DNA of 64,000 nt. Source: Bacteroidia bacterium (GTDB lineage Bacteria > Bacteroidota > Bacteroidia > Bacteroidales > UBA932). Shown in pieces: positions 6,654 through 42,846 of this stretch. The stretch is from NCBI GenBank assembly GCA_009929175.1, contig SABC01000001.1, forward strand, positions 42,593-106,592. Direction: 5' to 3'. Under the pieces are notes generated by a model. The model searched no databases and was not told the origin of the DNA. It worked only from the letters and a program-made list of their open reading frames with translations. Both the position numbers and the translations under genes were made by a program. The stretch's first letter is position 1. Every line of letters begins with the position of its first letter.

Positions 6654-9600
6654 AGATTTTGCAAATAGGTGGTAAAAACCTGGCCTCATTGGAGGAGGAA
6701 TTCCTTATAGATTTTAATGACGAGCCTTTGAAGTCGGCTGGTATTTTCGCAATTTCGGGTAATACCGGATCGGGTAAATCCACCATCCTGGACGCGCTTT
6801 GCCTTGCCCTGTACGACAAGACTCCCAGGACAAACCAGGCTGTGGAAAACATTCCCATAGAGGATATTCCCGGCCAGAGTATCAACCAAGGAGACCCCCG
6901 CTCGGTCCTCAGGAGGGGTTGTGCAGAGGGGTACGCAACGGTAACATTCGTAGCTTTGAATAGGGAGGTCTACCGTTCCGAATGGCGTGTAAGGAGGGCC
7001 CGTGGCAGGGCTGACGGTGCCCTCCAGAGCACCACAATGGTATTGACCAACCTAACCCAAAATCGGGAAGAACAGGGAACCAAGACCGAACTTCTGGAAC
7101 GGGTGAGGGAATTGACCGGGCTTACATTTGACCAGTTTACCCGCTCTGTCCTGTTGGCTCAGGGAGATTTTGCAACCTTTCTCAAAGCAAAACAGTCCGA
7201 AAAAGCCGATCTGCTCGAAAAGCTCACAGGCACGGAAATCTACTCCAGGATTTCCATTGAGATCTATAACATGGCCAAGGAGGCTGAGGGGCAAAAAAGA
7301 TCGATCCAAGAGAAGATCGGTTCCATTTTACTGTTGACACCGCAGGAGGAGCTCTCCCTTTTGAATGAACATAAGAGCAAAACCACAGAGCTGGTTGCAA
7401 CAGCAACATCAATAAAAGAGACCGAAAACATCCTACGTTGGTCAAAACAGCGAGACGAACTGGAAAAGTCAGTGGAAGTTTCGCGCAAAACATTCGAAGA
7501 CCTTACAAAAGAGCAAACCGTTGCCGGACCACGGAACCTTTTCCTGCAACGCTACGAACAACTGCAGCAAATCAGGGATCCTTACAACCTGATGACACTC
7601 TCTGCCCGGGAACATGCCGGCAAGGAAAAAACCCTTAAAGATCTTACCGGACAAACAGAGGAGAAACGGATTGCACTCACAAATTGCGAAGCCAAGGTCC
7701 GGGAATCCAAGGATAAACTACTGGAATTGAGTAAAGAACACTCACTTTGGGAACCGGTCATAGAAACAGCAATCCAAACTGCATCTGTAACAGCACAAAA
7801 AGAGTTATTGTACAACCAGCTCAATAAAGAGCACCAACTCCTCTCCGCTACATTGATGGGTATTAACCGGGAAATCACGGAAATAGAGAAGTTACTCAAA
7901 GCAGAGGAAGCAAAAACAGAGTATTGTAACAAATGGTTTGAACGATACCAGCCTTTTACAACAGCCTATCTCGATAAAAAAAACCTGCAAAAATCCATCG
8001 ACAATCTCATGGTATTGCAAAAAGGTGCAGCAGGCTCAAGGCAAATCATTGACCGGTGTAATATTACGCTAAAGAATAAAACAGAACGGAAAGCAGAACT
8101 TCAAAAAACCATTGAAGAGCTGGACAAAATCCTGCCTGCAGAGATTGCAAAACTAAGGGCTTCTCTTTCGCCTGACACCCCCTGCCCTGTTTGTGGCAGC
8201 ACCACACACCCCTACACCGGGCAAGTTACCGCCGTCACACTCAGGGAAGAGGAGTTGAACCAAAGAAAAAATATAGCAAAAACGGAGTTGGAAGAGATTG
8301 AGAAATCCCTGGTAACCACCATGGAAGAGATTACCCGTGCAACTCAATCAGCCCAGATTTACGACAGCCAGCTCAAGGATAGTGAAGATTCTGTAGAAAC
8401 CATCCTCAAAGGTACCGGACTTGATTGGAAACCTTTGGTGGCCGGCGGAGCCTTGGCACAAAAGCTTGACAAACTTTTCGGTTACTGGGATAAATACAGC
8501 CGTGACCTCCAAGAGGCTACCGAAAAGGAAAAAACCATTCGGAACACCCTGTTGATTCTGAATGAAAAGGCAAAGGAACAGGGAGGGATTATTGAGAGAG
8601 GTACAAAAGAGATTGAAAACCTCAAGAGGGAGATAGAGGCACTCCGGGAAAAAAGCAGCTCCCTTTTGGGAGGGAAAAGCGTGAAAGAGTTCCGTGAGGA
8701 GCAGTCGGCAGCACGCAAACAGATGGAGAAAGAGTTGGAACAGCTTGGCGCAGAATATGCGGAGTTTTCAAAGGAACACTCATCTTTGACTGCCACCTGC
8801 AAAGCTGTCCGGGAAGAGACAAAACGTTTGGCCGGCCAGGCAGCCCTTGCCCTTTCACAAATACGGGAATGGATCAGCAAAACAGGCAACCAATACACAA
8901 TGGATGAGATAGCCGAGATCCTTTCGAAGGAGCACTCCTTTATTGAAAGTGAAAAATCCTATATCCTGGATTTATCTCAAAGGGTTACTATGGCAAAGGC
9001 TACATTGATTGAGAGGGAGGGTCAGCTGACCCATCATATCGGTCTCAATCCGGCACCCGGGCAACGGGAAGAGCCAATGTCCCTTCAAAGAACTTTGGAC
9101 TCCCTTTTGGAAAGCCGTGACACCCTTCAAAAATACATCACTGCAATAGAGGTAAAACTCAAAACCAACGAAATTGAAACAAAAAAAAGCACTCAACTCC
9201 GCAAAGAACTCGAAGAAAAAACTTTGGTGGCAGAAGAGTGGAACCGGTTAAACTCCCTGTTTGGATCGGCTAACGGAGGCAAATTCAAGGAGATTGCCCA
9301 GAGTTACACACTGGACATACTGCTCAGCCATGCCAACATACACCTGACGGAGCTCACCTCCAGGTACAAGCTGGAGAGGACGGGCTCTTCCTTGGGGTTA
9401 CAGGTAAGTGATCTGGATATGTTGGGTGAGATCAGGTCTGTCCATTCACTTTCGGGGGGAGAGTCATTTTTGATCTCCCTGGCTCTTGCGCTCGGCCTGG
9501 CATCACTCTCCACCAACCGGATGAGCGTGGAGTCACTCTTCATAGACGAAGGTTTTGGCTCACTTGACATCGAGACCCTGAGGATCGCAATCGATGCACT

Positions 9601-9739
9601 CGAAAGGCTCCGCTCAAGCGGCAGGAAAATCGGGGTTATCTCACATGTATCCGAAATGACCGAAAGGATAGGTGTTCAGGTGAAAGTTGTGAAGAGCTCC
9701 AACGGAAAGAGCCGGATAGAAATTCTATCCGGCTCATGA
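6650..9739 (+). CDS. sbcC: exonuclease SbcC (Rad50-like SMC ATPase)
   Basis: SbcC is the ATPase and tether of the SbcCD nuclease. The N-terminal P-loop GNTGSGKST is at residues 37-45. Long coiled coils flank a zinc hook with CPVC near residue 511. The C-terminal ATPase half has the ABC signature LSGGES and the Walker B region LFIDEGFGSLD. At 1029 residues it is a typical length. It overlaps sbcD by 4 nt. The last codons form half of a perfect palindrome shared with the stop region. The gene converges on hydA with a 23-nt gap. Confidence 0.96.
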   Translation: MKILQIGGKNLASLEEEFLIDFNDEPLKSAGIFAISGNTGSGKSTILDALCLALYDKTPRTNQAVENIPIEDIPGQSINQGDPRSVLRRGCAEGYATVTFVALNREVYRSEWRVRRARGRADGALQSTTMVLTNLTQNREEQGTKTELLERVRELTGLTFDQFTRSVLLAQGDFATFLKAKQSEKADLLEKLTGTEIYSRISIEIYNMAKEAEGQKRSIQEKIGSILLLTPQEELSLLNEHKSKTTELVATATSIKETENILRWSKQRDELEKSVEVSRKTFEDLTKEQTVAGPRNLFLQRYEQLQQIRDPYNLMTLSAREHAGKEKTLKDLTGQTEEKRIALTNCEAKVRESKDKLLELSKEHSLWEPVIETAIQTASVTAQKELLYNQLNKEHQLLSATLMGINREITEIEKLLKAEEAKTEYCNKWFERYQPFTTAYLDKKNLQKSIDNLMVLQKGAAGSRQIIDRCNITLKNKTERKAELQKTIEELDKILPAEIAKLRASLSPDTPCPVCGSTTHPYTGQVTAVTLREEELNQRKNIAKTELEEIEKSLVTTMEEITRATQSAQIYDSQLKDSEDSVETILKGTGLDWKPLVAGGALAQKLDKLFGYWDKYSRDLQEATEKEKTIRNTLLILNEKAKEQGGIIERGTKEIENLKREIEALREKSSSLLGGKSVKEFREEQSAARKQMEKELEQLGAEYAEFSKEHSSLTATCKAVREETKRLAGQAALALSQIREWISKTGNQYTMDEIAEILSKEHSFIESEKSYILDLSQRVTMAKATLIEREGQLTHHIGLNPAPGQREEPMSLQRTLDSLLESRDTLQKYITAIEVKLKTNEIETKKSTQLRKELEEKTLVAEEWNRLNSLFGSANGGKFKEIAQSYTLDILLSHANIHLTELTSRYKLERTGSSLGLQVSDLDMLGEIRSVHSLSGGESFLISLALALGLASLSTNRMSVESLFIDEGFGSLDIETLRIAIDALERLRSSGRKIGVISHVSEMTERIGVQVKVVKSSNGKSRIEILSGS
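9709..9735. terminator. 13-bp palindrome at sbcC 3' end
   Basis: GAGCCGGATAGAA and TTCTATCCGGCTC are perfect inverted arms separated by one base, inside the last codons of sbcC and ending just before its stop. The site lies between two convergent genes, a natural place for a bidirectional transcription end. There is no T-tract on either side, so a classical intrinsic terminator is not proven. Confidence 0.5.
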
Positions 9740-9762: not shown

Positions 9763-11535
9763 TCAATAGATACCTCTCTCGGTATAGGCTGTATGCAGCA
9801 ATTCATGTGAGATATGTCCCAGAGGTTCTGTAAGGAACTCCTCGTATATGGCTTTGATCGCCGGATTCTCGTGGGATTTACGGATAGGGTGCAGTTTGTC
9901 TTCCCTGTAAATGGAATCTGCCCGTTTTTGGCGAATGGCCCATGTAGTTGGTATTGGTTGCCCGCCACCGCCAAGGCACCCTCCCGGACATGTCATAACC
10001 TCTATGAAAGCATAGGGTGATTTTCCCTCTTCTATCTGTTCCAAAAGGGTCCTGGCATTTTTAAGGGTATGTGCCACGGCAACTTTGATCTTGGTCCCGG
10101 CAAGGTCCAGCTCTGCCTCCTTGATCCCCTCAAAACCCCTCACCACATTGAGGTCTATTTTATCCAGAGGCTTCCCTGTAATCACCTCGTAGGCTGTTCT
10201 TACAGCAGCCTCCATCACACCTCCGGTAGCTCCGAATATGACACCTGCACCTGTCGATATGCCCAGAGGCTTATCAAATTCCTCAACATGCAGATGTTCG
10301 AAATCGACCCCTTTCCGTTTGAACATTTTGGCCAGCTCCCTTGTGGTAAGAACATAATCCACATCGTAGAAACTCTCACCCTCCTGCAAACCCATCTTCT
10401 CCTGCCAATAGTGGAAGGCCGACTTCATCTCGGGCCGTTTGCATTCGAATTTCTTTGCAGTGCAGGGCATAATTGAAACAACCACCAATTTGCGCGGGTC
10501 TATGTTCATCTTCTCTGCATAGTAGGTTTTGGCTACCGCTCCGAACATTTGCTGGGGCGATTTGCAGGTAGAGAGATGTTCCAGCGATTTTGGGAAGAAA
10601 TGTTCTATGAACTTAATCCAGCCGGGAGAGCATGAGGTAACCATCGGCAGGGTTCCCCCGCTCTTTATACGGTGTATCAGCTCATAACCCTCTTCCATGA
10701 TTGTGAGGTCGGCAGTGAACTGAGTGTCGAAGATCTTGTCAAATCCCAGCTTCCTGAGGGCTGCCACCATTTGGCCTGTAACCAGGGCACCCTCTTCCAT
10801 TCCCATGGCCTCACCTATACCCACACGGATAGCCGGTGCTGTCTGCACAATCACCACCTTGTCCTTGTCATATAGGTCCGCAAAAACTTCGTTGGTCTCA
10901 TCCCTTTCTACAATGGCTGCAGTAGGGCAAACCAAAGCGCACTGGCCGCAGCTGGTACAAGCCACGTTACCAAGTCCCTTATCTTCGAATGTCCCAATCC
11001 TGCTTCTCAGCCCTCTGCCGGTGAAGTCTATGGCGAAAACAGATTGTACCTCGGCACAAACGGCAACGCATCTGCCGCAAAGGATACATTTGTCGGGGTT
11101 CCTGATTAGTGCCAGGGAGGAGTTGTCGGGCTCCATATGAGGTTTTGTACGGGGAAAGGCATCTTCCTTGATTCCCAACACCGCCGACAGATCCTGAAGT
11201 TCACAGTTTCCGTTTCTTTCGCATACCAAACAATCCTTTGGATGGTTGGCAAGGAGTAGTTCAAGGTTCATTTTGCGGGCCTGGTCTATCTGCGGGGAGT
11301 GGGTAACCACCTCCATACCTTCACGGATGTTAGTCACACATGAACGGACCAAAGTCTTTGCCCCTTTGAGCTCCACCACGCAAATGCCACAGGATGCATT
11401 GTAGGAAACATCCTTCAAGTAACATAGCGAAGGGATACTTATCCCTATCTCGTTGCAAGCTTCCAGGATGCTTTTGCCTCCACCCACTTCGTAAGGGCGG
11501 CCGTCGATCGTTACATTTATTTTTTTCTTTTCCAT
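9763..11535 (-). CDS. hydA: [FeFe] hydrogenase catalytic subunit HydA
   Basis: This subunit reduces protons to H2 (or the reverse) at an H-cluster. From the N-terminus there is a [2Fe-2S] plant-ferredoxin-like domain (Cys38, Cys49, Cys52, Cys66). A His-Cys3 cluster follows (His98, Cys102, Cys105, Cys111), then two [4Fe-4S] motifs (Cys150-160 and Cys193-203). The H-cluster signatures are TSCSPGW (~300), MPCTAKKFE (~357) and MTCPGGCLGGGGQP (~514). Many stand-alone enzymes have TSCCPGW, so the Ser is a visible variant. The C-terminal small-subunit-like tail is complete. It is the last gene of hydC-hydB-hydA, 2 nt after hydB. The cluster architecture fits the trimeric, ferredoxin- and NAD-linked (bifurcating-type) hydrogenases, inferred from family knowledge. 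Confidence 0.93.
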   Translation of the reverse strand: MEKKKINVTIDGRPYEVGGGKSILEACNEIGISIPSLCYLKDVSYNASCGICVVELKGAKTLVRSCVTNIREGMEVVTHSPQIDQARKMNLELLLANHPKDCLVCERNGNCELQDLSAVLGIKEDAFPRTKPHMEPDNSSLALIRNPDKCILCGRCVAVCAEVQSVFAIDFTGRGLRSRIGTFEDKGLGNVACTSCGQCALVCPTAAIVERDETNEVFADLYDKDKVVIVQTAPAIRVGIGEAMGMEEGALVTGQMVAALRKLGFDKIFDTQFTADLTIMEEGYELIHRIKSGGTLPMVTSCSPGWIKFIEHFFPKSLEHLSTCKSPQQMFGAVAKTYYAEKMNIDPRKLVVVSIMPCTAKKFECKRPEMKSAFHYWQEKMGLQEGESFYDVDYVLTTRELAKMFKRKGVDFEHLHVEEFDKPLGISTGAGVIFGATGGVMEAAVRTAYEVITGKPLDKIDLNVVRGFEGIKEAELDLAGTKIKVAVAHTLKNARTLLEQIEEGKSPYAFIEVMTCPGGCLGGGGQPIPTTWAIRQKRADSIYREDKLHPIRKSHENPAIKAIYEEFLTEPLGHISHELLHTAYTERGIY

Positions 11536-11537
11536 GA

Positions 11538-14500
11538 TTATTCCTCCTCATTGTTTACAGTTACCCTTACATCACAACGCAGGCATCTGGCTACCTCTTC
11601 GTATGCCTGCTCTTTGGTGTAACCCAGGTTGATTTCCTTGAAATTCCCGGTCCTCTCTTCGAGGGGCCTTTTGACCGAGTAGTGCCTGTTGCCCCCTTCG
11701 GGTTTGAGTGGCACCTCGTTGCTGTAGTCAAATGCTCGGAACAATTTATGGAACCTTCGTTTGTTTGTAAGCTCAAAATCAATTACCTCAGCTGCCTTTT
11801 TGGCTATACCCATAGCCTCTGCCGCAGTAGAAGGGCCGGTAACGGCATCCCCAATCGCGTAGATTTTGGGGAAGTTGGTTTTAAAGGTGAAGTGGTCTGC
11901 AAAGATATTTCCGTTGGAGTGGGACTTGATCCCGAACTCTTTGAGGAAAGGTGCCTCAACCTCTTCGCCTACGGCCATGATCACGGTATCGCATCCAACG
12001 ATAAAGGATTCTCCGGTGGGCAATGGTTTGCGCCTGTTGGAGAGGTCAATATCGCCACATGCCATCCTGGCAAGCTCAATACCCCTGACCCTGTCGTTCA
12101 CGTCGGTAAGTATCTCCGTCGGATTGCTCAGGAACAAGAAGTTAACCCCTTCAATTTCGGCTTCCTTGATTTCGTCCTTGTTGGCAGGCATATCGGATTT
12201 GACCCTGCGGTAAACCACTGTAACCTCGGCACCAAATCTTTGGGCAGTCCTGGCAGCATCAATTGCCACATTACCTGCCCCTATCACAACCACATTCTTG
12301 CCAATGTCGGGCTGTACCCCCTTTGCAACATCTTTGAGGAAGTCCATCCCCGAAACCACGCCTTTGAGGTCATTACCTTTCACATTGAGCAAAACATCTT
12401 TATGGGCGCCAACCGCAATTATTATCTTGTTATAGTTATGCTCCAGCTCCTCCATTGAGATATCTTTTCCGACCTTGGTATTGTACCGGAAGGTTACCCC
12501 GAGGCTTTTGATAAACTCAATTTCCCTGTCAAGAGTTTCCAAAGGAAGCCTGTATTTAGGTATGCCCCACCTCAGGATTCCTCCTGCAGCAGGATCAGCC
12601 TCAAAGAGGGTAACCTCGTGACCCAACCTTACAAGGTAAAAAGCAGCTGTTAATCCGGCAGGACCTCCACCGATTATTGCAATTTTCTTGTATGTAGGAG
12701 CCAGTTTTTCACGTATCAAACGGTTGTATATCTTTTGGGATTTCCCCTCCAGGTATACGGTGTCGGCAATATATCTATGGATATCTCCCTGCGAAACCGG
12801 TGCATCCACAGTCTCTCTCAAGCACTTCATCTGACAATGGAAGTGACAGATACGTCCGATTGTCGATGGGAGAGGGTTGTCCCTCAAAGTAGACTCGAAT
12901 GCATCTTCGAGTTTGTCTTCTTTGAGCAACTGCAGGTAACGAGGAATATTCATATGCAGAGGGCAGCTGTTGATACACAATGCTGTAAAGAGCGAATGGC
13001 AGATGCCTGGTTCACACTTTTTCTCTATCATATGGTGGTCATATTCGTCCCGGAAATAACGCAAGGTGGTGAGTACCGGGTTTGGAGCAGTCTGCCCGAG
13101 CCCGCACAAAGCCGTGCTTTTTATAGTATTCCCAAGCTTTACCAAGGTATCCAGGTCTTTTTGGTCTCCTTTGCCTTCGGTGATACGGTTGAGGATATGG
13201 AGGGTCTGGGCAAGCCCTTCTCGGCAAGGGGTACATTTCCCGCATGATTCCCCATTGGAGAATTCCGTGAAATACCTCGCCACATCTACCATACAGTTGT
13301 CCTGGTCCATTACCACCATACCTCCCGAGCCCATAATGGTGCCTAAAGAGTTGAGTGACTCGTAGTCTACAGGCGTACTGAGGTACTCCACCGGGATACA
13401 TCCTCCCGAAGGTCCACCGGTCTGTACCGCCTTTACCCTTTTTTGGGTACCGGTCCCCTCTCCTATTTTAAACACGATGGTTTCCAGTGTAGATCCCAAA
13501 GGAAGTTCGACCAAACCCGTGTTTTTGACCTTACCTACCAAAGAGAAAACTTTAGTTCCGGGGCTCTTTTCGGTTCCCGTACCGGTTAGCCACTCACCTC
13601 CCCTGGAAATTATCACCGGCACATTGCACCATGTCTCAACATTGTTGATATTGGTGGGTTTTCCGTAAAGACCCTTTTCGGCAGGGTAAGGAGGTCTTGG
13701 AGTAGGCCTTCCTGCCTTACCCTCAATACTGTGGATAAGGGCTGTCTCCTCCCCGCAAACAAAAGCGCCTGCCCCCTCAACAATGTCTATGTCAAAGGAG
13801 AATCCCGAATTGAGGATATTCTCTCCCAACAACCCGTGCTCTTTTGCCTGCCTGATTGCTCCTTTGAGACGTTGTACCGCCAATGGGTACTCTGCCCTTA
13901 TATAAACAACACCTTTGGAAGCACCCATTGCGTAGGCCCCTATTGTAAGGCCTTCCAGCAACATGAACGGGTCGCTTTCAATTTCGTTACGGTTCATGAA
14001 TGCACCGGGATCACCTTCGTCGGCATTGCATATCACATATTTTTGATCGGCTTCTACTTTGGCCATCAATTCCCACTTGACTCCGGTTGGGAAACCGGCT
14101 CCTCCGCGCCCCCTGAGTTTTGATTTCTTGACCTCATCGGTTACTGATTCCGGAGTCAATTGGTTCAAAGCTTTGTAAAGGGGGAAATACCCGCCTACGC
14201 CAATGTACTCTTCAATATCGTCGGGAACAATTATCCCGCAATTACGGAGTACAATCTTTTTTTGCCACTTGAAAAAGGGAACTTCGTTCCAAAGCGGGTA
14301 TTCATGCAGCCCTTGGCCGTACTTGAATTCCCCTGTTATAAAGTCCCACTCCTCAACCCGGCACAAAACATTCCTGTATGGCATTATGCCCCTTTCGATG
14401 CCCATAATTATTGGAACCACATCGTTTTCGGTTACCCGGTGCATTATTATAAGGGGCTTCCCTGGAATAAAGATATTTACCAGTGGTTCCTCGGCACAAA

Positions 14501-14702
14501 ATCCAAAACATCCTGTCTTTTTTAGGATTATATCAAGATTGCGCTCCTTGATGCTTCTTTCGAAACTATCATAGAGTACCTCTGCACCCCGGCCAATCCC
14601 GCATGTGCCCATCCCTACTGCAATGTAGGGCTTGCCAGGAACAATCTTACGGGCACCGTTCTCTTTGATTTTTAGTAAATCAGCATAGTCTGATATTCTC
14701 AT
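11538..14702 (-). CDS. hydB: HydB (NuoF-like) fused to GltD-like flavoprotein
   Basis: The 1054-residue protein has two halves. Residues 1-560 are a HydB/NuoF-type diaphorase: an N-terminal thioredoxin-like [2Fe-2S] domain (Cys34, Cys65, Cys69), the FMN/NADH region with GRGGAGFPTG (198-207), and the [4Fe-4S] motif ESCGKCTPCREG (485-496) with Cys533. Residues 560-1045 resemble the glutamate synthase small subunit (GltD/NfnB family). They have an N-terminal Cys-rich ferredoxin-like region (CINSCPLH, CHFHC), an FAD-binding IGGGPAG (677-683) and a second dinucleotide fold VIGAGNVAIDAA with a downstream VYRR that often marks NADPH use. The usual HydB C-terminal ferredoxin domain is replaced. It overlaps hydC by 23 nt. 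An extra NAD(P)H site is inferred, not shown. Confidence 0.9.
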   Translation of the reverse strand: MRISDYADLLKIKENGARKIVPGKPYIAVGMGTCGIGRGAEVLYDSFERSIKERNLDIILKKTGCFGFCAEEPLVNIFIPGKPLIIMHRVTENDVVPIIMGIERGIMPYRNVLCRVEEWDFITGEFKYGQGLHEYPLWNEVPFFKWQKKIVLRNCGIIVPDDIEEYIGVGGYFPLYKALNQLTPESVTDEVKKSKLRGRGGAGFPTGVKWELMAKVEADQKYVICNADEGDPGAFMNRNEIESDPFMLLEGLTIGAYAMGASKGVVYIRAEYPLAVQRLKGAIRQAKEHGLLGENILNSGFSFDIDIVEGAGAFVCGEETALIHSIEGKAGRPTPRPPYPAEKGLYGKPTNINNVETWCNVPVIISRGGEWLTGTGTEKSPGTKVFSLVGKVKNTGLVELPLGSTLETIVFKIGEGTGTQKRVKAVQTGGPSGGCIPVEYLSTPVDYESLNSLGTIMGSGGMVVMDQDNCMVDVARYFTEFSNGESCGKCTPCREGLAQTLHILNRITEGKGDQKDLDTLVKLGNTIKSTALCGLGQTAPNPVLTTLRYFRDEYDHHMIEKKCEPGICHSLFTALCINSCPLHMNIPRYLQLLKEDKLEDAFESTLRDNPLPSTIGRICHFHCQMKCLRETVDAPVSQGDIHRYIADTVYLEGKSQKIYNRLIREKLAPTYKKIAIIGGGPAGLTAAFYLVRLGHEVTLFEADPAAGGILRWGIPKYRLPLETLDREIEFIKSLGVTFRYNTKVGKDISMEELEHNYNKIIIAVGAHKDVLLNVKGNDLKGVVSGMDFLKDVAKGVQPDIGKNVVVIGAGNVAIDAARTAQRFGAEVTVVYRRVKSDMPANKDEIKEAEIEGVNFLFLSNPTEILTDVNDRVRGIELARMACGDIDLSNRRKPLPTGESFIVGCDTVIMAVGEEVEAPFLKEFGIKSHSNGNIFADHFTFKTNFPKIYAIGDAVTGPSTAAEAMGIAKKAAEVIDFELTNKRRFHKLFRAFDYSNEVPLKPEGGNRHYSVKRPLEERTGNFKEINLGYTKEQAYEEVARCLRCDVRVTVNNEEE

Positions 14703-15216
14703 CTTTGTTGTCCTCCTGTAAGTTTTTTAGAATTTTCTTGATTTGTTCCGATGTTACATTGCTGTAAATGATTCCATCCACGGCAACGACAGGAGCCAAG
14801 GCACATTGGCCAAAGCATGCAACCGTCTTTACGGTTATCTGCCTGTCTTCGGTAGTAAAACTTGACTCCCCTGCTTCGAGTGCCTCTTTGCAACCTTGCA
14901 GGGAGGAGAGGTCATCCAGTAAAACCTTGGACCCTTTAGTGTGGCATGCTGTACCACGGCAAACAATTATTGTGTGCTTGCCTTGGGGTTTGAGGTTAAA
15001 GAATGAGTAAAATGTAGCTACACTGTACATTTGGGACAAAGGTGTCTTTGTTTTGGCTGCCAGGTATTCCATGGCATTGCTGTCCAAAAACTTGAACTCG
15101 TTTGCCTCTTGCATCTCTTCCATCATTGTCAGGAGAGCGCCTGGTTTTCCATTGTGCCTGGAGATTATCTCGTCGATGGTTACCCTATCGGCAAGATTAT
15201 CATCGCTGGTATTCAT
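14680..15216 (-). CDS. hydC: hydrogenase subunit HydC (NuoE-like)
   Basis: This small subunit carries a thioredoxin-fold [2Fe-2S] cluster. CRGTACHTKG and CFGQCALAP supply the four cysteines in the NuoE pattern. It passes electrons within the HydABC hydrogenase or the diaphorase module of complex I-type enzymes. The 178-residue length is normal. It is the first gene of the operon, and its 3' end overlaps the hydB start. The nearest -7 box lies about 140 nt upstream, so the mRNA may have a long leader. Confidence 0.92.
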   Translation of the reverse strand: MNTSDDNLADRVTIDEIISRHNGKPGALLTMMEEMQEANEFKFLDSNAMEYLAAKTKTPLSQMYSVATFYSFFNLKPQGKHTIIVCRGTACHTKGSKVLLDDLSSLQGCKEALEAGESSFTTEDRQITVKTVACFGQCALAPVVAVDGIIYSNVTSEQIKKILKNLQEDNKDENIRLC

Positions 15217-31080: not shown

Positions 31081-32085
31081 TCATATCCTTGCAACTGCGA
31101 GGAAAACAGAATGGAGGACAACTGTTGCCACTATCCATAAACGCTCTGCATTCTTAGGATCAAGCCAGGCAAACCGGTACTCAAATCCGTTATGCCGGCA
31201 GGCAACCAAACAATCCCCACAATAGGTACACGTAGCACCTATTTTTTTCTTGGAAAGGCTCTCCGGAGTCAAAGCCATATAGCTGCACTTTGGGATACAA
31301 GCATTGCAGCCGGTGCAATTATCGTTGACCACAAACCCGAAGGGGGATATTTTTTTTGCATACCCCACAATTGTCCCTATGGGGCAGTAAAGGGTGCAAT
31401 TGATCATCATTCCATTGCGTGGAGTTGCAAAAACCACAAGCAACAAACCCAAAACACCTGCAGCAAGGCCACAAAACGTAGCAATTGACGACCCGGTTCC
31501 GGTGATTCTCAAGACCAGTGCTGCCAACACCATGGTTAGCAGGACAACCAGTTTGATCTTCAACTTGTTCTTGAATGCAGCTGATTTCAAAAAACCTCTC
31601 CTTTTTTTACTGCCAATTGATGCCGCATTGGCATCGGCAGCTCCGAAGTAGCATAACTGGCTGCACCACGCAGGACCCGTTAGAAGAATAGTGGATAAAA
31701 AAAGGATGATCATAAACCATGAGCTAAAGCGGTACAACGGAGCAGCAAGGATCATTGCAGGGATTGGAAGGTGCAACTTTCCGGTTAACAAAAAGAGGGA
31801 ATCTGCTGTTACTCCAAGAATTAGCTGTCCATAAAAAAAGAGTGAAAAAAGAGTCCAGGCCCTCAGCCTCCACTTTTTCCTCTCTTCCCTTCCTGCCATC
31901 TTGTAGCAAAGGAATCCCGAATACAACGAAACGCACCCCACTTGAAGCCACCCTCCAATTCCCGGTAAAAGTCTCTCGGCCAATAGCAAAGGGTTTTCTG
32001 GGACGGTATTCACAATAGAAAGAAGAGCAGCAGTAAGCACAAATGCTACTGCTGCAATTCCCGGATTTTTACAGTTGATCCACAC
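31081..32085 (-). CDS. NapH-like membrane 4Fe-4S protein
   Basis: The 334-residue protein has about five or six hydrophobic segments. Two Cys-containing loops in the membrane part (GPAWCSQLCYF and INCTLYCPIG) and a C-terminal double [4Fe-4S] ferredoxin domain (CTGCNACIPKC, CTYCGDCLVAC) match the NapH/polyferredoxin family. Such proteins pass electrons at the inner membrane. No reductase partner is adjacent. It overlaps the metalloprotease gene by 17 nt and is probably co-transcribed with it. Its specific donor and acceptor are unknown. Confidence 0.82.
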   Translation of the reverse strand: MWINCKNPGIAAVAFVLTAALLSIVNTVPENPLLLAERLLPGIGGWLQVGCVSLYSGFLCYKMAGREERKKWRLRAWTLFSLFFYGQLILGVTADSLFLLTGKLHLPIPAMILAAPLYRFSSWFMIILFLSTILLTGPAWCSQLCYFGAADANAASIGSKKRRGFLKSAAFKNKLKIKLVVLLTMVLAALVLRITGTGSSIATFCGLAAGVLGLLLVVFATPRNGMMINCTLYCPIGTIVGYAKKISPFGFVVNDNCTGCNACIPKCSYMALTPESLSKKKIGATCTYCGDCLVACRHNGFEYRFAWLDPKNAERLWIVATVVLHSVFLAVARI

Positions 32086-34570
32086 TCAATGTCTTTTCTA
32101 TATGTCTAATCAAATATTGATTGTGTGCCCTGGTAGAAAAATCTCCCGAAGATGTTCTCTTGAGCCTGTTTAAAAGATCGTTCATCTGCATGAATGCAAT
32201 TGCTGAGCATTCAGTTGCATCCTTAGGATTTGGTGTAGGTTTGGCAACCATACGTCCCGATGCTGCAGCTCCAGTATAAAGATCACAAAGTGCGTGGACA
32301 TAAGTCTTTTGCAATAATCTCTTGTATGTGTCTGTTGGTCTGCCCAAGCCACTCCAGATTGATTTATCGAGCCTGTCAAACAAATCCTTTACAGTAAAAG
32401 CCGATTTGCCCATGGAGGTTTCGGCAGAAACAAGATTCATTATTACCCTGCGGCTAAGCAGGCTGGACAACGCTGTTGCGTAACTTCTTTCCAGGTACGA
32501 CTCGGCCCTGCTGGGAAACTTGTTTAAGTACTCATCGGGAATCAGCCAAACAGGAGTATTGGCAAACAGATGCCTGTGGAGGAAATCCATAGCCTCTTCT
32601 TGCTTCTGCCTTTCTACATTGCGGTAAACATCCCCAGGCATTTCAACGGTTTTGGGATCTTGGTACACACCTCCCACCCATTTGACAACATGACCTATGT
32701 AACGACGGAACTGGTTGTTGACCTCGCTGTGCATTGTCCTGAGGTTCTCATACCCTTCGTTGGGGCTTTTAGTCCATTCGTCCAAATTGCTCATCACGTA
32801 TTTAAGATTCCGGATACCCAGCTCGTTGGTCTCCATTTGATTCTCACCAAGGTCTTCGGCCTGCAAACGAGGATCGCTGGCACTGCTTTCGGTGCCAAAC
32901 TGGAATTTGGGATCTTTGGTTTTCTCGATTATCCAGCTGTTTATCTTTGGAAGCTCTTTGATAGGATCGTCAATCTCGGGAAATCTCCTGTAACCCCACT
33001 CGATGCACCAGTAATCGTAATGACTTATGCGAGGGAACAGCAGCTCCCTTGGTATATTGTCCTCGGGTTGGGCTACAAAGTTAAACCTTGAGTAATCCAT
33101 GATTGAGGTGGTATGACCGTTCTCTCTCAGGAATTCGGGATCCCTCAGCTGTTTTGCTGTATAGAATGCGGTTCCGGCAAAATTATGCCTCATTCCAAGT
33201 GTATGGCCTACCTCGTGGGAAGAGACAAAACGGATAAGCTGTCCCATAAGCTCGGTGTCGAACAACATTTTACGTGCACCCGGATCGGATGGCGAACACT
33301 GTATAAAATACCAGTTTCTCACCAAAGACATTACATTGTGGTACCAGTTTATATGGCTCTCAATGATCTCTCCCGAACGGGGATCGTTCACGTGAGGACC
33401 GCTTGCATTGGGAATCTCCGAAGGCTTGTAAACTATTGCAGAGTAACGGGCATCTTCCAGGGACCACTCTGGATCCTCTTCGGGTGTAGGAGCCCTTTTA
33501 CCAATGATTGCATTTTTGAATCCTGCCTTTTCAAAAACAGGTTGCCAGTCGTTTACACCTTGGATCAAAAAAGGAACCCACTCCTCAGGAGTTGCAGGAT
33601 CTATGTAAAAAACAATAGGTTTTGCAGGCTCTACAAGTTCCCCCCTTTTGTACTTTTCAACATCTTCGGGCCTGGGTTCCAGACGCCATCTGGTAATCAT
33701 TCTGATATCTTTTACTCCCTGTGGGTTTTGGTCAAAATCGGTATATCCGGTCGTAAAATAACCAACCCTGTCATCGGAATATCTTGGAGTCATCGGCTCT
33801 TTGGGTAACAGGACAAAAGAGTTGTTCAGTTCATATGTTGCAGTTTCGCCTCTGTCCGAACGCATGTAGGTTTTAACTGTCTTTACCTCGGTGTTGATTG
33901 GGTATGTGGTTATATCCGAAACATAACTGCTCTCCCTCTGGATAGAACCCAGCTTGAAAGCAGCTTTGCTTGCTTTCCGGAAAAAGAGAGACTCCGAATC
34001 AGTCCCAAAGAAATCGGTGACATCGATCAGGTTGTCCTTTTTGTCGGCCGATTGTGCCTTGATTTCGAATGTAGCGGCAATTGCAGCCAGGTTGGACCGG
34101 AGTACTGCCTCGTACATGGCTTGGGTGCTGTCTTTGGAACGCTCCCTGTTGTAAGTTTTCCTCAGGAAAATCTTATTATCGGGCCCCCTTTCAAAACGGA
34201 ACACACCCGAGTTGAGTTGGTCCCCGGCATAACCGTCAAAGCTGGAACGGATACCTTCGGCAGCTTTGGAAATCCTTGTAACCATTATGATTTCACGTCC
34301 AAAAAGGGAATCATTCACATTGATGAAAAATTTGCCGTCTTGTTTGTAGACTGTAGTTAGCCCCTTCATGGGTTTCACGTCGGGTTTGATGAATTTTTCG
34401 ATGGTTGCCAAACCTTTTGCCTCGGGCTTTTTCACTGAATCTGCACTGTTGTTTTGCTCAGTATTTTGCCGTGAAGCGATATTGGCCTGCCGTCTCGGCT
34501 GCGAGCCAAGGGAGAGTGTCAAAGCCATTAAAATGGCCGTGAGAGTGATTAACTTGTTAAAGCGTTGCAT
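32069..34570 (-). CDS. zinc-dependent metalloprotease (DUF5117/DUF4953 type)
   Basis: The 833-residue protein begins with a signal peptide (LITLTAILMALTLSLGS). It carries the extended zincin motif HEVGHTLGMRHNF near residue 450, in which three His bind zinc and Glu is catalytic. This domain arrangement is common in Bacteroidetes and is annotated as DUF5117/DUF4953 zinc-dependent metalloprotease. It is likely periplasmic or outer-membrane facing. The -7 box at 34596-34603 lies 25 nt upstream. Confidence 0.88.
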   Translation of the reverse strand: MQRFNKLITLTAILMALTLSLGSQPRRQANIASRQNTEQNNSADSVKKPEAKGLATIEKFIKPDVKPMKGLTTVYKQDGKFFINVNDSLFGREIIMVTRISKAAEGIRSSFDGYAGDQLNSGVFRFERGPDNKIFLRKTYNRERSKDSTQAMYEAVLRSNLAAIAATFEIKAQSADKKDNLIDVTDFFGTDSESLFFRKASKAAFKLGSIQRESSYVSDITTYPINTEVKTVKTYMRSDRGETATYELNNSFVLLPKEPMTPRYSDDRVGYFTTGYTDFDQNPQGVKDIRMITRWRLEPRPEDVEKYKRGELVEPAKPIVFYIDPATPEEWVPFLIQGVNDWQPVFEKAGFKNAIIGKRAPTPEEDPEWSLEDARYSAIVYKPSEIPNASGPHVNDPRSGEIIESHINWYHNVMSLVRNWYFIQCSPSDPGARKMLFDTELMGQLIRFVSSHEVGHTLGMRHNFAGTAFYTAKQLRDPEFLRENGHTTSIMDYSRFNFVAQPEDNIPRELLFPRISHYDYWCIEWGYRRFPEIDDPIKELPKINSWIIEKTKDPKFQFGTESSASDPRLQAEDLGENQMETNELGIRNLKYVMSNLDEWTKSPNEGYENLRTMHSEVNNQFRRYIGHVVKWVGGVYQDPKTVEMPGDVYRNVERQKQEEAMDFLHRHLFANTPVWLIPDEYLNKFPSRAESYLERSYATALSSLLSRRVIMNLVSAETSMGKSAFTVKDLFDRLDKSIWSGLGRPTDTYKRLLQKTYVHALCDLYTGAAASGRMVAKPTPNPKDATECSAIAFMQMNDLLNRLKRTSSGDFSTRAHNQYLIRHIEKTLSVDQL

Positions 34571-37837: not shown

Positions 37838-38437
37838 TTATACCAAACCTGCAAATCCCATGAAGGCCAGAGCCAGGATACCTGCAGTTATAAGTGCGAT
37901 CGGAGTACCTTTGAATGCTTTAGGAACATTTGCAAGGTCCAATTGTTCACGCAACCCCGCAAAGAGTATCATTGCCAGCCCGAATCCAAGGGCAGTTGCA
38001 ATTGCAAAGACCACTGACTGGGCCATATTGAGCATCGCCGGCTCCCCTCCAAAGGAGAACTCCTTGGATACAACCAGTATAGCCACACCAAGAACAGCAC
38101 AGTTAGTAGTAATCAGCGGTAAAAAAATACCCAAAGCCTGGTAAAGTGATGGACTTATCTTTTTCATGATTATCTCTACCATCTGTACCAGCGAAGCTAT
38201 CACAACAATAAATGTGACAGTTTGCATAAACTCAATCCCTAGCGGGACAAGCACATAATATTGGAGAATATAGGTTACAAGTGTTGCCACCGCCATTACA
38301 AAAGTCACAGCTCCCGACATGCCCGCGGCTGTACTAACTTTGTTTGAGACCCCCAGGAACGGACACACTCCCAAAAACTGGGAGAGTACAATATTGTTGA
38401 CAAAAACTGCCGATATTATTATTAGGATATATTCCAT
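37838..38437 (-). CDS. rnfA: Rnf complex subunit RnfA
   Basis: RnfA is a six-helix membrane subunit of the ion-translocating ferredoxin:NAD oxidoreductase. The start [29 protein letters not shown], with its membrane Cys, and the central [12 protein letters not shown] match the RnfA/NqrE family. In structures of related complexes RnfA and RnfE hold an iron-sulfur centre between them. Length 199 is normal. It is the last rnf gene. Confidence 0.95.
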
Positions 38438-38448
38438 AATCTGCGGTT

Positions 38449-39036
38449 TTAAGAAATTTTAGTTTTAAGTTTATTGAAAAGTACCAACAGGTATCCCAAA
38501 GCAAGGAAAGCTCCCGGAGCCAGGACAAACACCAGCATTCCGTCACCCTCCATCAACTTTATCCCAAATATGGATGCACTCCCAAGCAACTCACGGACAG
38601 CTCCTAACACAGTCAAACCAAGGGTAAATCCCAATCCAATCCCGATCCCGTCCAAAGCAGAGTCTGTGATGTTGTTTTTGGAAGCAAATGCCTCGGCCCT
38701 TCCCAAAACGATACAGTTAACTACAATAAGCGGTATAAAGAGACCCAAGGTCTCGTAGAGACCTGGTGTATAGGCCTGCATAATCAGCTGCAAAACAGTA
38801 ACGAAAGCAGCAATTATCACAATGAAAGAAGGAATCCTTACTTTATTGGGGATTACAGACGAAACTGATGAAATTACCACATTGGACATTATCAGGACAA
38901 AAGTTGTTGCAAGCCCCATTCCCAAGCCGTTTATAGCCGAGGTGGTAGTCCCAAGTGTAGGGCACATACCCAGCAAAAGGACAAATATGGGATTCTCTTT
39001 AATAATCCCTTTGGTTATCAAGTTTAGCTTACTCAT
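38449..39036 (-). CDS. rnfE: Rnf complex subunit RnfE
   Basis: RnfE is the RnfA-like second membrane subunit. It has six hydrophobic segments with the paired Cys motifs [12 protein letters not shown] and [19 protein letters not shown]. The 195-residue length fits. It overlaps rnfG by 8 nt and lies 11 nt before rnfA. Confidence 0.95.
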
Positions 39037-39628
39037 TGCTTACCTCCTTTGAATCATTTTGAGAATTGCATTTTTTAAAAACCTCCCACGCAGTGTTAAC
39101 AGCATCACAAAATGCCCTGGAGGTTATTGTTGAGGCTGTGATAGCATCCACATCACCACCGTCCTTTTTTACCAGGAGCTGGAAGTCATCGGGATTCTTC
39201 CCTTTGAACTGGACGCTGAAATCACTTTTGGAAGCATCGATCTTGTCTCCCAGTCCGGGAGTCTCTGCATGTGAAAGCACAGCTGTTCCGTTGATTGACC
39301 CGTCGACATTGAAACCCACCATCAGGGAGATCCTTCCGCCAAACCCCGAAGCAAAGCTCTCTATAGCATAGCCGACAATCGCCCCTCCCATTTTGGCAGG
39401 ATAAACCTTGTAGCTTTTGCCAGCCAGCTCAACCACCAACTGGTCAGCCGAAGGATCATTGTCGAATTCAGGGGCAACCCCTGCTATTGCATTGTTTGTT
39501 TTCAATGTCATCGCCTCTTCTATCGGACCCTTGGTAAGGGAGTAGACAACACCCAAAAGGGAAGATGCCACAAGGGTTATTGCCGATAGGGTCAGCAACA
39601 TGTTTTTCAAAGTTGATTCCTTAGCCAT
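39029..39628 (-). CDS. rnfG: Rnf complex subunit RnfG (FMN-binding)
   Basis: RnfG has one N-terminal transmembrane helix and an extracytoplasmic FMN_bind domain. The flavinylation region is seen as DAITASTITS near residue 170; in this family a Thr here carries covalent FMN. At 199 residues it is a normal length. It overlaps rnfD and rnfE by 8 nt each. Confidence 0.94.
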   Translation of the reverse strand: MAKESTLKNMLLTLSAITLVASSLLGVVYSLTKGPIEEAMTLKTNNAIAGVAPEFDNDPSADQLVVELAGKSYKVYPAKMGGAIVGYAIESFASGFGGRISLMVGFNVDGSINGTAVLSHAETPGLGDKIDASKSDFSVQFKGKNPDDFQLLVKKDGGDVDAITASTITSRAFCDAVNTAWEVFKKCNSQNDSKEVSNE

Positions 39629-40622
39629 GTTTTACCTCCTTTCCAAATTTTGCAGGTTTGAAGTAGTTGTTCAATAGGGGCACTGTTGCATTCATGATCA
39701 GTATTGCGAAGGAGATTCCCTCCGGGTAAGCACCAAAGTTCCTGATCAAAACCGTAATAACACCAATACCTATTCCGTATATTATCATCCCTTTTGTGCT
39801 CATAGGCGAAGTCACATAATCAGTTGCCATGAATATTGAGCCAATAAGGATACCTCCTGTAAGGATTGTGAAAAGAGGATCGGGGTTGTGTGAAGGATCA
39901 ATTATCCAAAAAATACCCGAAAAGATAACAATCGTCCCTAAAATCGCAACCGGGATATGTGGCCGGATTACCCTTCTTATCAACAGATAAGCCAATCCCA
40001 CAAGCAATGCCAGTGCAGAGACCTCTCCCACGGAACCTCCAATTTTGCTGAACAACATCTGGGCATAGGAAAAATTATGCTCTGCAAAAATCTGATCCAT
40101 TGTCATTCCTTTGGACAACCCCTCCTTAACAATTGAAAGGGCCGTTGCTCCGGTGTTTGCGTCAATACCCTCCCGGAACCACGATGTCGGAATAGTCCAG
40201 TCTGTCATGATGACCGGGAAAGAGACCAATAAAAATACACGTCCTACCAAAGCAGGGTTGAAAAGATTTTGCCCCAGGCCGCCAAAACTCATTTTGGCAA
40301 CACCGATAGCCACCACCGAACCAATGAAAACAATCCACCAAGGTGAATTGGGCGGCAGATTAAGGGCCAGCAGGAGTCCTGTCAGGGCAGCCGAATAATC
40401 GTTTATCTCTACTTTTGATTTGATTACATATTTCTGGATCACATACTCTACAAGGACACAGGCAATGACACCGACAAAGGCCAGTTTTATGGCAGAGAAT
40501 CCAAAGAAATAGACGGATACAAGGAGGGAAGGCGATAATGCAATTACCACATCCCTCATCAAACCCCTCGTACTCTCATTCCCGTGTAAATGCGGTGCCG
40601 GAGAAACTAATAGTTTTTTCAT
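39621..40622 (-). CDS. rnfD: Rnf complex subunit RnfD
   Basis: RnfD is a multi-helix membrane subunit (NqrB family). The covalent flavin site is visible as ANTGATALS, with the TGAT core, near residue 155. The stretch FNPALVGRVFLL is also characteristic. At 333 residues it is typical. It is thought to form the main ion path. It follows rnfC by 13 nt. Confidence 0.95.
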   Translation of the reverse strand: MKKLLVSPAPHLHGNESTRGLMRDVVIALSPSLLVSVYFFGFSAIKLAFVGVIACVLVEYVIQKYVIKSKVEINDYSAALTGLLLALNLPPNSPWWIVFIGSVVAIGVAKMSFGGLGQNLFNPALVGRVFLLVSFPVIMTDWTIPTSWFREGIDANTGATALSIVKEGLSKGMTMDQIFAEHNFSYAQMLFSKIGGSVGEVSALALLVGLAYLLIRRVIRPHIPVAILGTIVIFSGIFWIIDPSHNPDPLFTILTGGILIGSIFMATDYVTSPMSTKGMIIYGIGIGVITVLIRNFGAYPEGISFAILIMNATVPLLNNYFKPAKFGKEVKHG

Positions 40623-40635
40623 ATCTCTTATTAAG

Positions 40636-41973
40636 TTACTTTTTAGGTCTGCTTCTTATGATTTTCAATACTTGGGCTTTTGAAAGCCGGATAGTATCCA
40701 GCAGTGGAATATTGGCAGGACAACTGTACATACAGCTGCCACACTCAATGCAATCATGCACCATGTTTGCTTCCAGGTCCTCCACTCTTCCAGCCCTGGA
40801 CAACCTGTTGAGAAGGTAAGGTTCAAGGCCCATCGGACAGGAATCCACACACTTTGCACATCTGATGCAATTTCCTTCCTCCCCACGTTTGGTCTCCTCT
40901 TCTGTTAACAGTAAAAATGCAGAGGTGCTTTTCACAGATGCCGCCTCCATACGTGAAACAGCCTTACCCATCATGGGACCACCACTTATCAGTTTTACTG
41001 CATCTTTGGGGAACCCTCCAATCGCAAACATGACGCTGTTCATATTAGCTCCGACCCTCAAGCGGAAATTCCTTTGCTCAGTCATGCATTTGCCGGTAAC
41101 GGTTACAATTCCCTCAAAAAGAGGCTTGTTCTTTTGAACTGCCTCATAGACAGCCAAAGCAGTACCAACATTCTGGACCACAACACCAGTCTCAATTGGC
41201 AACCCCAAGGAAGGGACCCTTCTCTTAAGAATCGCATCAATCAACTGCTTTTCGCCCCCTTGCGGGTATCTTTTTTTAAGTTGTACAATTTTTATCTGAG
41301 GGTAACCGGCAGAGGCAATTTTCTTCATTGCCTTTATTGCTTCGGGCTTGTTCTCTTCGATTCCGACGAATGCGTGGTCCACACCAAGTGCCTTCATCAT
41401 AATCTTTGTGCCAATCAGGATCTGCTCCGGATACTCCAGCATGATCCTGTAATCCGACGTCAGGTAAGGCTCACATTCCGCGCCGTTTATCAATAGATAC
41501 TCTGCCTTATTGCCCGGAGGTGGCGAAAGTTTGATGTGGGTGGGGAATGCAGCACCGCCAAGACCCACAATCCCGCACCGGGCAATCCTCTCTATTATCT
41601 CTTTGGGGCCCAGGGTAATCTCCCTTTCTATTTGAGGAGAACGATCGATAGACTCCTCCCATTCGTCTCCCTCTACCTTGACAACAATGTGTTTCACAAG
41701 GTTTCCTGCAATATCTGGTAACATCTCTATGGATGTTACGGTACCGGATACCGATGAATGGATATTCGCAGAGATGAATCCGGAGGCTTTTGCCACCAAC
41801 TGGCCTGTCTTTACCTTGTCGCCCTTTGCAACAACGGGTTCTGCAGGAGCTCCCAAATGTTGGGAGACAGATATGTACGCCATATCCATGATCGGAAAAT
41901 CTTCTATGGCAGCATTTGCTGATATTTTACTGTCATTCGGATGTATGCCGCCAATGGAAAAAGTTTTACTCAT
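40636..41973 (-). CDS. rnfC: Rnf complex subunit RnfC
   Basis: RnfC is the peripheral NADH/FMN-binding subunit. It shows an N-terminal barrel-like region (VAKGDKVKTGQLVAKA), the nucleotide-binding GLGGAAFPTHIKLSPP and two [4Fe-4S] motifs near the C-terminus (CIRCAKCVDSCP, CIECGSCMYSCP). The 445-residue length is that of the short RnfC form without the long alanine-rich tail. Confidence 0.95.
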   Translation of the reverse strand: MSKTFSIGGIHPNDSKISANAAIEDFPIMDMAYISVSQHLGAPAEPVVAKGDKVKTGQLVAKASGFISANIHSSVSGTVTSIEMLPDIAGNLVKHIVVKVEGDEWEESIDRSPQIEREITLGPKEIIERIARCGIVGLGGAAFPTHIKLSPPPGNKAEYLLINGAECEPYLTSDYRIMLEYPEQILIGTKIMMKALGVDHAFVGIEENKPEAIKAMKKIASAGYPQIKIVQLKKRYPQGGEKQLIDAILKRRVPSLGLPIETGVVVQNVGTALAVYEAVQKNKPLFEGIVTVTGKCMTEQRNFRLRVGANMNSVMFAIGGFPKDAVKLISGGPMMGKAVSRMEAASVKSTSAFLLLTEEETKRGEEGNCIRCAKCVDSCPMGLEPYLLNRLSRAGRVEDLEANMVHDCIECGSCMYSCPANIPLLDTIRLSKAQVLKIIRSRPKK

Positions 41974-41985
41974 ATTTTAATGATA

Positions 41986-42846
41986 TTACTGTTCAATGGT
42001 TTCTGCTTCTGCTTTTTTGGGCACCCTCACCGGGAAGTTCACCTCCCAAATTGCATGTGTAGGACATTCGGTCACACATTTACGGCACAATTTACATTTG
42101 TTGTAGTCAATGTAGGCCAGATTGTCAATGATTGTGATGGCATCATAGGCACACGCCTTTTGGCATTTGTAGCAACCTATACATGCAACCGCACAGGCTT
42201 TGCGTGCTACGCCCCCTTTATCTTTGTTCACACATGAGACAAAAATCCTTCTGTTCTTGGGACCTTTGTTCCTTAGTTCTATTATGAATTTAGGACAAGC
42301 CTTTACACATGCCCCGCACGCCGTACATTTCTCCTCGTCAACCTCGGGCAATCCGGTCCTTGGATCCATCTTGATGGCATCGAAATTACACACCACAACA
42401 CAATCTCCCTGCCCAAGGCAACCATAACTGCATCCGGTATCTCCGGCATACAACCCGGCCATAACGGCACACGAACCATACCCGTCATAATGGTTGACCT
42501 TTTCCCTTGCATCACAGTTTCCGTTACACCTCACTACTGCAACCTGGGGAGCCTTGGCAGCTACTGTCTTTCCAAGAGATCCGGCAACACCCTTCATCAC
42601 ATCATTGCCCCCGACAGGACAAAAAAGAGGTTCAAGGTCGTCGGCCTTGACACAAGCCTCTGCGAATGCACGGCATCCGGCATAGCCACACCCCCCGCAG
42701 TTCGCACCGGGCAGGATTGCCTCCACATCATCGATCCGGGGGTCCTCCTTTACCATGAATTTTTGAGCTACCAAATAGAGTATCCAGGCCAGTACAAAGC
42801 CCAGGAGAGTCAGGCTGACAATTGTAAAAATAATTGTATTAGTCAT
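41986..42846 (-). CDS. rnfB: Rnf complex subunit RnfB
   Basis: RnfB accepts electrons from ferredoxin. An N-terminal membrane helix (residues ~3-26) is followed by the Fe-S (FeS4) domain with NCGGCGYAGCRAFAEAC. Further cysteine groups follow: a cluster in CSYGCLGQGDCVVVC, then CTACGACVKACP, CIGCYKCQKAC and CKLCRKCVTECP, enough for several [4Fe-4S] centres. At 286 residues it is a typical length for Bacteroidetes. It is the second gene of rseC-rnfBCDGEA. Confidence 0.95.
   Translation of the reverse strand: MTNTIIFTIVSLTLLGFVLAWILYLVAQKFMVKEDPRIDDVEAILPGANCGGCGYAGCRAFAEACVKADDLEPLFCPVGGNDVMKGVAGSLGKTVAAKAPQVAVVRCNGNCDAREKVNHYDGYGSCAVMAGLYAGDTGCSYGCLGQGDCVVVCNFDAIKMDPRTGLPEVDEEKCTACGACVKACPKFIIELRNKGPKNRRIFVSCVNKDKGGVARKACAVACIGCYKCQKACAYDAITIIDNLAYIDYNKCKLCRKCVTECPTHAIWEVNFPVRVPKKAEAETIEQ

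Follow-up and report, generated by a model that had tools for sequence, protein, structure and literature searches.

We analysed a 64,000-nucleotide (nt) stretch of a Bacteroidia bacterium genome (GenBank assembly GCA_009929175.1, contig SABC01000001.1; hereafter the window), in which HydB, the diaphorase subunit of a trimeric [FeFe] hydrogenase, is fused in one frame to a GltD-like flavoprotein. The hydB::gltD fusion gene (11538–14702, minus strand; a single open frame of 1054 amino acids (aa)) occupies the middle of a tight operon. Its start is overlapped by 23 nt by hydC (14680–15216, minus strand), which encodes a 178-aa thioredoxin-like [2Fe-2S] subunit (PF01257, E = 9e-40), and 2 nt past its stop begins hydA (9763–11535, minus strand), which encodes the 590-aa H-cluster subunit. 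A terminator-like hairpin with a 12-pair stem and a T-rich tail follows 3' of hydA (9709–9735, minus strand; a consensus match only). HydA carries the three H-cluster motifs (TSCSPGW, IMPCTAKK and EVMTCPGGCLGGGGQ) and scores 863.7 bits against the group A6 model NF040763 of NCBIfam (cut-off 765), which places it with the group A6/A3 trimeric [FeFe] hydrogenases and bears out the H-cluster partner subunit proposed in an earlier note made from the sequence alone.

A protein scan over the genomes of 84,980 species yielded 179 confirmed relatives of the fusion protein, of which we kept the best 80; conservation is given below for these together with the window's protein (n = 81), whose numbering (P0001) is used throughout. 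The first ~565 residues are a HydB/NuoF-type diaphorase, and the protein is GltD/NfnB-like from residue 568 onwards, with all Pfam matches well over cut-off. Its features lie, like the gene, on the minus strand. The N-terminal thioredoxin-like domain (residues ~25–105; 14388–14630) retains C34, C65 and C69 in alignments, in which the first canonical cluster ligands are replaced by Gly, as in StnB. Next comes the domain for flavin mononucleotide (FMN) and NADH (Nuo51, PF01512; residues 191–362; 13617–14132) with its CGEE motif (E318 in 80 and E319 in 79 of the 81 aligned fusions), followed by the domain of the NuoF-type cluster B1 (NADH_4Fe-4S, PF10589; residues 473–557; 13032–13286), whose ligands C487, C490, C493 and C533 are invariant (81/81). 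The GltD-like half opens with an N-terminal Fe-S domain (DPD_II, also Fer4_20; PF14691, E = 2e-22; residues 568–649; 12756–13001) and continues with a double Rossmann domain for flavin adenine dinucleotide (FAD) and NAD(P)H (Pyr_redox_2, PF07992, E = 2e-37; residues 673–965; 11808–12686) that bears GGGPAG and GAGNVA motifs. Within the latter, the second dinucleotide fold (PF00070; residues 803–877; 12072–12296) is of NADP(H) type, with YRR in all 81 fusions and K/R835 in 78.

Structural comparison gave the same picture. Residues 27–577 match HydB/StnB-type chains in the PDB (E ~1e-193), the closest being B subunits of bifurcating enzymes (T. sibiricus Nfn-ABC, the A. mobile [NiFe] enzyme (HydB) and A. 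woodii and T. maritima HydB), and residues 576–1044 match NfnB as well as the GltD region of Stn-type A/C chains (Nfn-ABC/Stn). Foldseek returned this two-part identity again; in an AlphaFold model much of each half is good, with a predicted template modelling score of 0.52 and a per-residue confidence (pLDDT) below 50 at the junction. Pfam and PDB matches to both parts of one frame thus agree with the earlier note, which had described HydB as running unbroken into a complete GltD-like half, with one FMN/NADH site (PF01512 with CGEE) and a second FAD/NAD(P)H site (PF07992 with GGGPAG, GAGNVA and YRR). It was also right that the C-terminal ferredoxin domain of HydB is replaced: the Pfam scan of the fusion protein found no Fer4 ferredoxin domain, and GltD stands in its place.

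The fusion recurs widely. Among the best 80 of the 179 relatives, 51 belong to Bacteroidota, 11 to Omnitrophota, 7 to Ignavibacteriota and 4 to Spirochaetota, the rest being 2 Lentisphaerota, 2 Verrucomicrobiota, 1 FCPU426 and 2 unplaced (seven phyla in total). Parts of both halves share one frame in 80/80 relatives, a few of which are cut by contig ends. The earlier note had suggested a search for two-domain proteins beside hydA: in 71 of the 71 loci long enough for three genes the order is hydC–hydB::gltD–hydA on one strand, and hydC is encoded in every relative locus whose sequence extends that far. Within the genus, 20 of 25 species have a full-length frame, none with the stop or frameshift at the junction that the note had named as a refutation; 3 are cut at contig ends, and a fusion match was absent from the remaining 2, both draft assemblies. 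Complete genomes, such as those of Bacteroidales bacterium CF and Petrimonas sp. IBARAKI, hold the fusion intact. The partner HydAs share a further trait: the Cys that follows the first H-cluster ligand (TSCCPxW), which relays protons in other hydrogenases, is Ser (TSCSPGW) in 71/71 of those in which the motif was found. The fusion itself is real and conserved. Whether such proteins were already described, a question the note had left aside, can be answered as well, since the architecture is on record in silico as 'sub-type I BfuB' (PMC11406978).

The joint between the two halves is conserved. Four residues, C470, H557, C563 and C568 (the last three at 12999–13034), are invariant in 81/81 fusions and align with C438, H525, C531 and C536 in the subunit from A. 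mobile. At this site T. maritima HydB (PMC9499530) and StnB (PMC10482914) hold a Zn2+ hinge for a mobile C-terminal Fe-S domain, and in A. mobile the same site was modelled as a [2Fe-2S] cluster, B2 (PMC9304861, PMC8880783). We dropped the latter assignment in view of the Zn2+ in the T. maritima and Stn structures, and do not count the hinge as an electron carrier. The hinge-site His is missing from non-bifurcating homologues (PMC9304861), and in our alignment the whole site is absent from the short HydBs encoded in operons adjoining several of the fused ones. The next Cys past the hinge is C576, with exactly 7 residues between in 81/81, so that the GltD module sits where the B3/B4 ferredoxin domain begins in canonical HydB. 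The break-free fusion claimed in the note stands, and its border has to be moved from near codon 560 to near residues 568–576.

The cluster ligands of the GltD half are C576, C580, C619, C623 and C627, all invariant (81/81), together with the C-terminal pair C1040 and C1043 (CLRC; 11574–11585), retained in 80/81. In a two-part alignment with 5jca_L and 4ylf_B this pair, which would complete the distal [4Fe-4S] cluster, is the counterpart of the N-terminal CLQC of NfnB and is found, as in StnC, where the GltD part ends. We take the sorting of these Cys into distal and proximal clusters to follow dihydropyrimidine dehydrogenase. For the cluster next to the FAD, the eighth ligand position is occupied by Glu in NfnB and by Lys170 in StnC (PMC10482914). 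His642 (codon at 12777–12779) aligns there without gaps against 5jca_L and 8oh5_C, each of the three proteins having this residue 15 positions past the final Cys of its second Cys motif, and from this position would bind the FAD-proximal cluster. The residue is His in 81/81 fusions, and likewise in two further loci (L142, L152); in a sample of 50 GltD-like proteins from the phylum that are not fused, 34 have Glu, 16 Lys and none His.

Phylogenetic trees place the His-type fusions in one clade for the HydB part (support 100) and also for the GltD part (support 99), which indicates that the two halves were inherited together. Further, divergent HydB–GltD fusions, 45–48% identical overall, occur in Spirochaetota (L153–L163); they have Lys at the His642 position, as in StnC, retain the hinge, and in most cases adjoin hydC and hydA. 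A joint GltD clade of His and Lys fusions was not rejected (approximately unbiased test, p-AU 0.63), and the Lys-type fusions do not form one clade in the HydB-part tree; a single origin of the two kinds is thus neither rejected on the GltD part nor shown. Two longer frames of 1750 aa (G188:C1:1231664-1235158) and 1704 aa (G190:C16:67576-70956) also combine HydB and GltD parts, with GltD parts 41–43% like that of the window, and are possibly StnB–StnC fusions.

Building upon these features, we propose that HydC, HydB–GltD and HydA form a soluble trimeric [FeFe] hydrogenase in which the ferredoxin arm has been swapped for an NADP(H)–FAD arm, and which couples H2 to NADH and NADPH together without ferredoxin; we consider this about evenly poised between right and wrong, and the most likely of the mechanisms weighed. 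H2 would be activated at the HydA H-cluster, whose motifs are present, and electrons would pass through the HydA clusters and B1 to the FMN and NAD(H) site of HydB, along a path modelled on relatives. The other branch would lead from the FMN to the [2Fe-2S] cluster of HydC, across the hinge into the GltD half, where the distal [4Fe-4S] cluster would come first and the proximal (Cys3His) one second, and on to FAD and NADP(H). In this way, electrons of low potential would travel from the FMN/HydC region to FAD/NADP(H) rather than to ferredoxin; the GltD FAD would gather electron pairs without bifurcating them. Overall, the reaction would be 2 H2 + NAD+ + NADP+ <=> NADH + NADPH + 2 H+, in either direction.

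Several observations favour this proposal: the H-cluster motifs and A6 match; the retained B1, hinge and CGEE; the conserved GltD ligand positions, FAD motif and NADP-type motifs; the 7-residue joint at the place of B3/B4; the presence of hydC; and the joint inheritance of both halves. In Stn, the low-potential branch depends on the cluster of the HydC homologue (PMC10482914). Energetics point the same way. With typical E' values assumed (NADH −280 mV, NADPH −370 mV, ferredoxin −500 mV), H2 formation is computed to be downhill to ~37 Pa with NADH and NADPH, compared with 1.3 Pa with NADH alone, and to 4.8 kPa with NADH and ferredoxin. A fuller version, in which the complex would be a ferredoxin-free confurcating hydrogenase forming H2 from NADH and NADPH through an exchangeable, swinging HydB arm, with a Cys3His proximal [4Fe-4S] cluster in place of the known Glu, Lys or Gln forms (NfnB/GltD, Stn, dihydropyrimidine dehydrogenase), we hold tentatively, as slightly more likely to fail in some part than to hold in all.

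Other points weigh on the opposite side. In every solved state of the T. maritima enzyme, more than 30 Å separate B3/B4 from the remainder (PMC9499530). Coupling thus requires movement, and an arm as much larger as GltD might or might not move in this way. The AlphaFold model leaves the placement of the GltD half against the HydB core unfixed, and we make no claim about geometry from it. We deduce from motifs which cofactor the second site takes, and the coupling of H2 to NADP+ is just mildly endergonic, so that bifurcation may be unneeded. The literature searched, mostly open access and with bioRxiv preprints outside its scope, contained no biochemical study of the fusion.

Ungated equilibration is the main rival. 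The complex would then be a non-bifurcating NADH hydrogenase like that of Syntrophomonas wolfei, with GltD as a second port through which H2, NADH and NADPH equilibrate (hydrogenase plus transhydrogenase). S. wolfei HydABC works with NADH alone, and its HydB has neither the N-terminal [2Fe-2S] nor the C-terminal [4Fe-4S] centres (PMC5626996); the fused HydB likewise has no B3/B4 and a degenerate N-terminal cluster. However, the hinge is invariant in the fusions and missing from short HydBs of the non-bifurcating type, the NADPH pool would drain into NADH without gating, and several sister species encode, beside the fused enzyme, a distinct short HydABC for an NADH-only job. We therefore judge equilibration unlikely, though well short of negligible.

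Ferredoxin might also keep a part by binding the Fe-S domain of GltD in the way that it binds NfnB, which would link H2, NADH, NADPH and ferredoxin with one another. In NfnB the homologous domain does pass electrons to ferredoxin, through its two [4Fe-4S] clusters (PMC10482914), and the earlier note had likewise given ferredoxin a possible role. That role finds no support here: the part lost is B3/B4, the ferredoxin-reducing arm of bifurcating relatives, the first cluster Cys of GltD is tethered 7 residues from the hinge, so that the distal cluster probably faces HydB/HydC, and the same genome has a canonical HydABC with a ferredoxin domain as well as NfnAB. This makes ferredoxin docking improbable. 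We regard as distinctly improbable the proposal of PMC11406978 that, besides the FMN, the FAD of the GltD half is another centre of bifurcation, of the NfnB kind. R718, the equivalent of NfnB R201, an Arg that contacts FAD N5, is conserved in 81/81; StnC, whose FAD does not bifurcate, retains this Arg too (PMC10482914), and we accordingly rejected it as proof of FAD bifurcation. In addition, the operon lacks an NfnA subunit, and the proximal position holds His, not the Glu of NfnB. For the last alternative, that sequencing or assembly error merged two genes, we found no point in favour, and it is left practically no chance by a fusion that runs unbroken through 20 genomes from the genus and, across seven phyla, through 80 loci, some of them in complete genomes.

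Other redox systems accompany the fused operon. The window's genome encodes a canonical HydABC with a ferredoxin arm (L097, contig C78, 1146–5718); a separate short thioredoxin-like open reading frame precedes it on that contig, and a sensory-type [FeFe] hydrogenase lies near (8163–9494). In the sister species, the complete second operon that adjoins the fused one encodes a HydB of ~400 aa without hinge or C-terminal arm (L007:11575-15100, L013:1979-5470, L015:1729-5260 and similar). With the canonical, fused and short operons taken together, one genus holds trimeric hydrogenases with a ferredoxin arm, with a GltD arm and with no arm. NfnAB is encoded on contig C2; two very similar nfnB genes occur on contigs C2 (L086) and C143 (L087) with the same neighbour after each, a pair that may reflect the 6.6% contamination of the assembly. 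Elsewhere, contig C314 (L098; 963–5334) encodes two consecutive hydrogenase-like proteins of the sensory [FeFe] type and, after them, one that is phosphatase-like. The window itself also contains an Rnf-type gene cluster (37838–42846, minus strand) that includes RnfC (40636–41973), and a gene for a large Met-zincin protein with DUF4953/DUF5117/DUF5118 (32069–34570).

What is new here is the retained hinge with its exact 7-residue joint, the His at the ligand position, the existence of two fusion types, and the occurrence across Bacteroidota, Omnitrophota and Ignavibacteriota. If our NADH- and NADPH-coupled proposal is correct, a bifurcating core has changed its partner through an arm swap on the low-potential side, whereas in the remaining known cases (Stn, Fdh, F420, Wor) it is the module on the opposite side that differs. 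Fermenting Bacteroidota and others would gain a hydrogenase for H2 between the limits of NADH alone (~1 Pa) and of NADH plus ferredoxin (~5 kPa). The enzyme would also help to test the roles of the disputed hinge metal and of the arm, as ferredoxin-arm, NADPH-arm and arm-less forms exist naturally within one genus. Annotators who see the HydB part alone would infer use of NADH and ferredoxin, probably wrongly.

Among known systems, sub-type I BfuB (PMC11406978, 2024, Hydrogenedentota), in which B3/B4 are replaced by DPD_II and an FAD/NAD(P) domain is C-terminal, comes closest. Judged by its published description, sub-type I BfuABC has the same B-subunit architecture with BfuA and BfuC, and the window's protein shows the corresponding domains (PF14691 at 568–649, PF07992 at 673–965). 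The reported hosts are Hydrogenedentota, Spirochaetota, Pseudomonadota, Planctomycetota, Verrucomicrobiota, Kiritimatiellota and Thermodesulfobacteriota, whereas ours are mainly Bacteroidota, Omnitrophota and Ignavibacteriota; many Hydrogenedentota sub-type I complexes have a fourth subunit, BfuD, which was not seen in the window operon. The Bfu family census required the ferredoxin domain IPR017896 in BfuB (PMC9304861), and fused proteins were therefore probably not counted. The NuoF-type domains of that definition (IPR011538, IPR019554, IPR019575) are represented in the fusion by PF01512, PF10589 and a nuoF_fam match over 162–557, and its His/Cys site (B2 or Zn hinge) is present in 81/81; lacking IPR017896 (B3/B4), the protein is not a Bfu member by this definition, though its core is similar. 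With the bifurcating HydABC of T. maritima, A. woodii and T. kivui the complex shares the HydA H-cluster, HydC, FMN/NADH site, B1 and metal hinge, but it has a GltD module instead of the B3/B4 ferredoxin arm, and its N-terminal cluster is degenerate. The NADH-dependent, ferredoxin-independent HydABC of S. wolfei (PMC5626996) also lacks B3/B4, but its HydB is short (407 aa), without a GltD half, and the enzyme does not use NADP(H). NfnB of NfnAB resembles the GltD half in fold, two [4Fe-4S] clusters, FAD, NADPH motif and N5 Arg, and differs in being a separate subunit with NfnA, in its Glu ligand and in its N-terminal CxxC; the window operon has no nfnA, and His replaces the Glu. Finally, Stn/Nfn-ABC (S. 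ovata, C. saccharolyticus, T. sibiricus) likewise joins a Bfu-type core to a GltD-type NADPH module with CxxC at the GltD end. There, GltD resides on the NuoG-like A/StnC subunit, with Lys (K170) at the proximal cluster, and the ferredoxin arm is still present on the B subunit. The window fusion has neither trait: GltD is on HydB in place of the arm, with His642 at the proximal cluster, and the A subunit bears the H-cluster.

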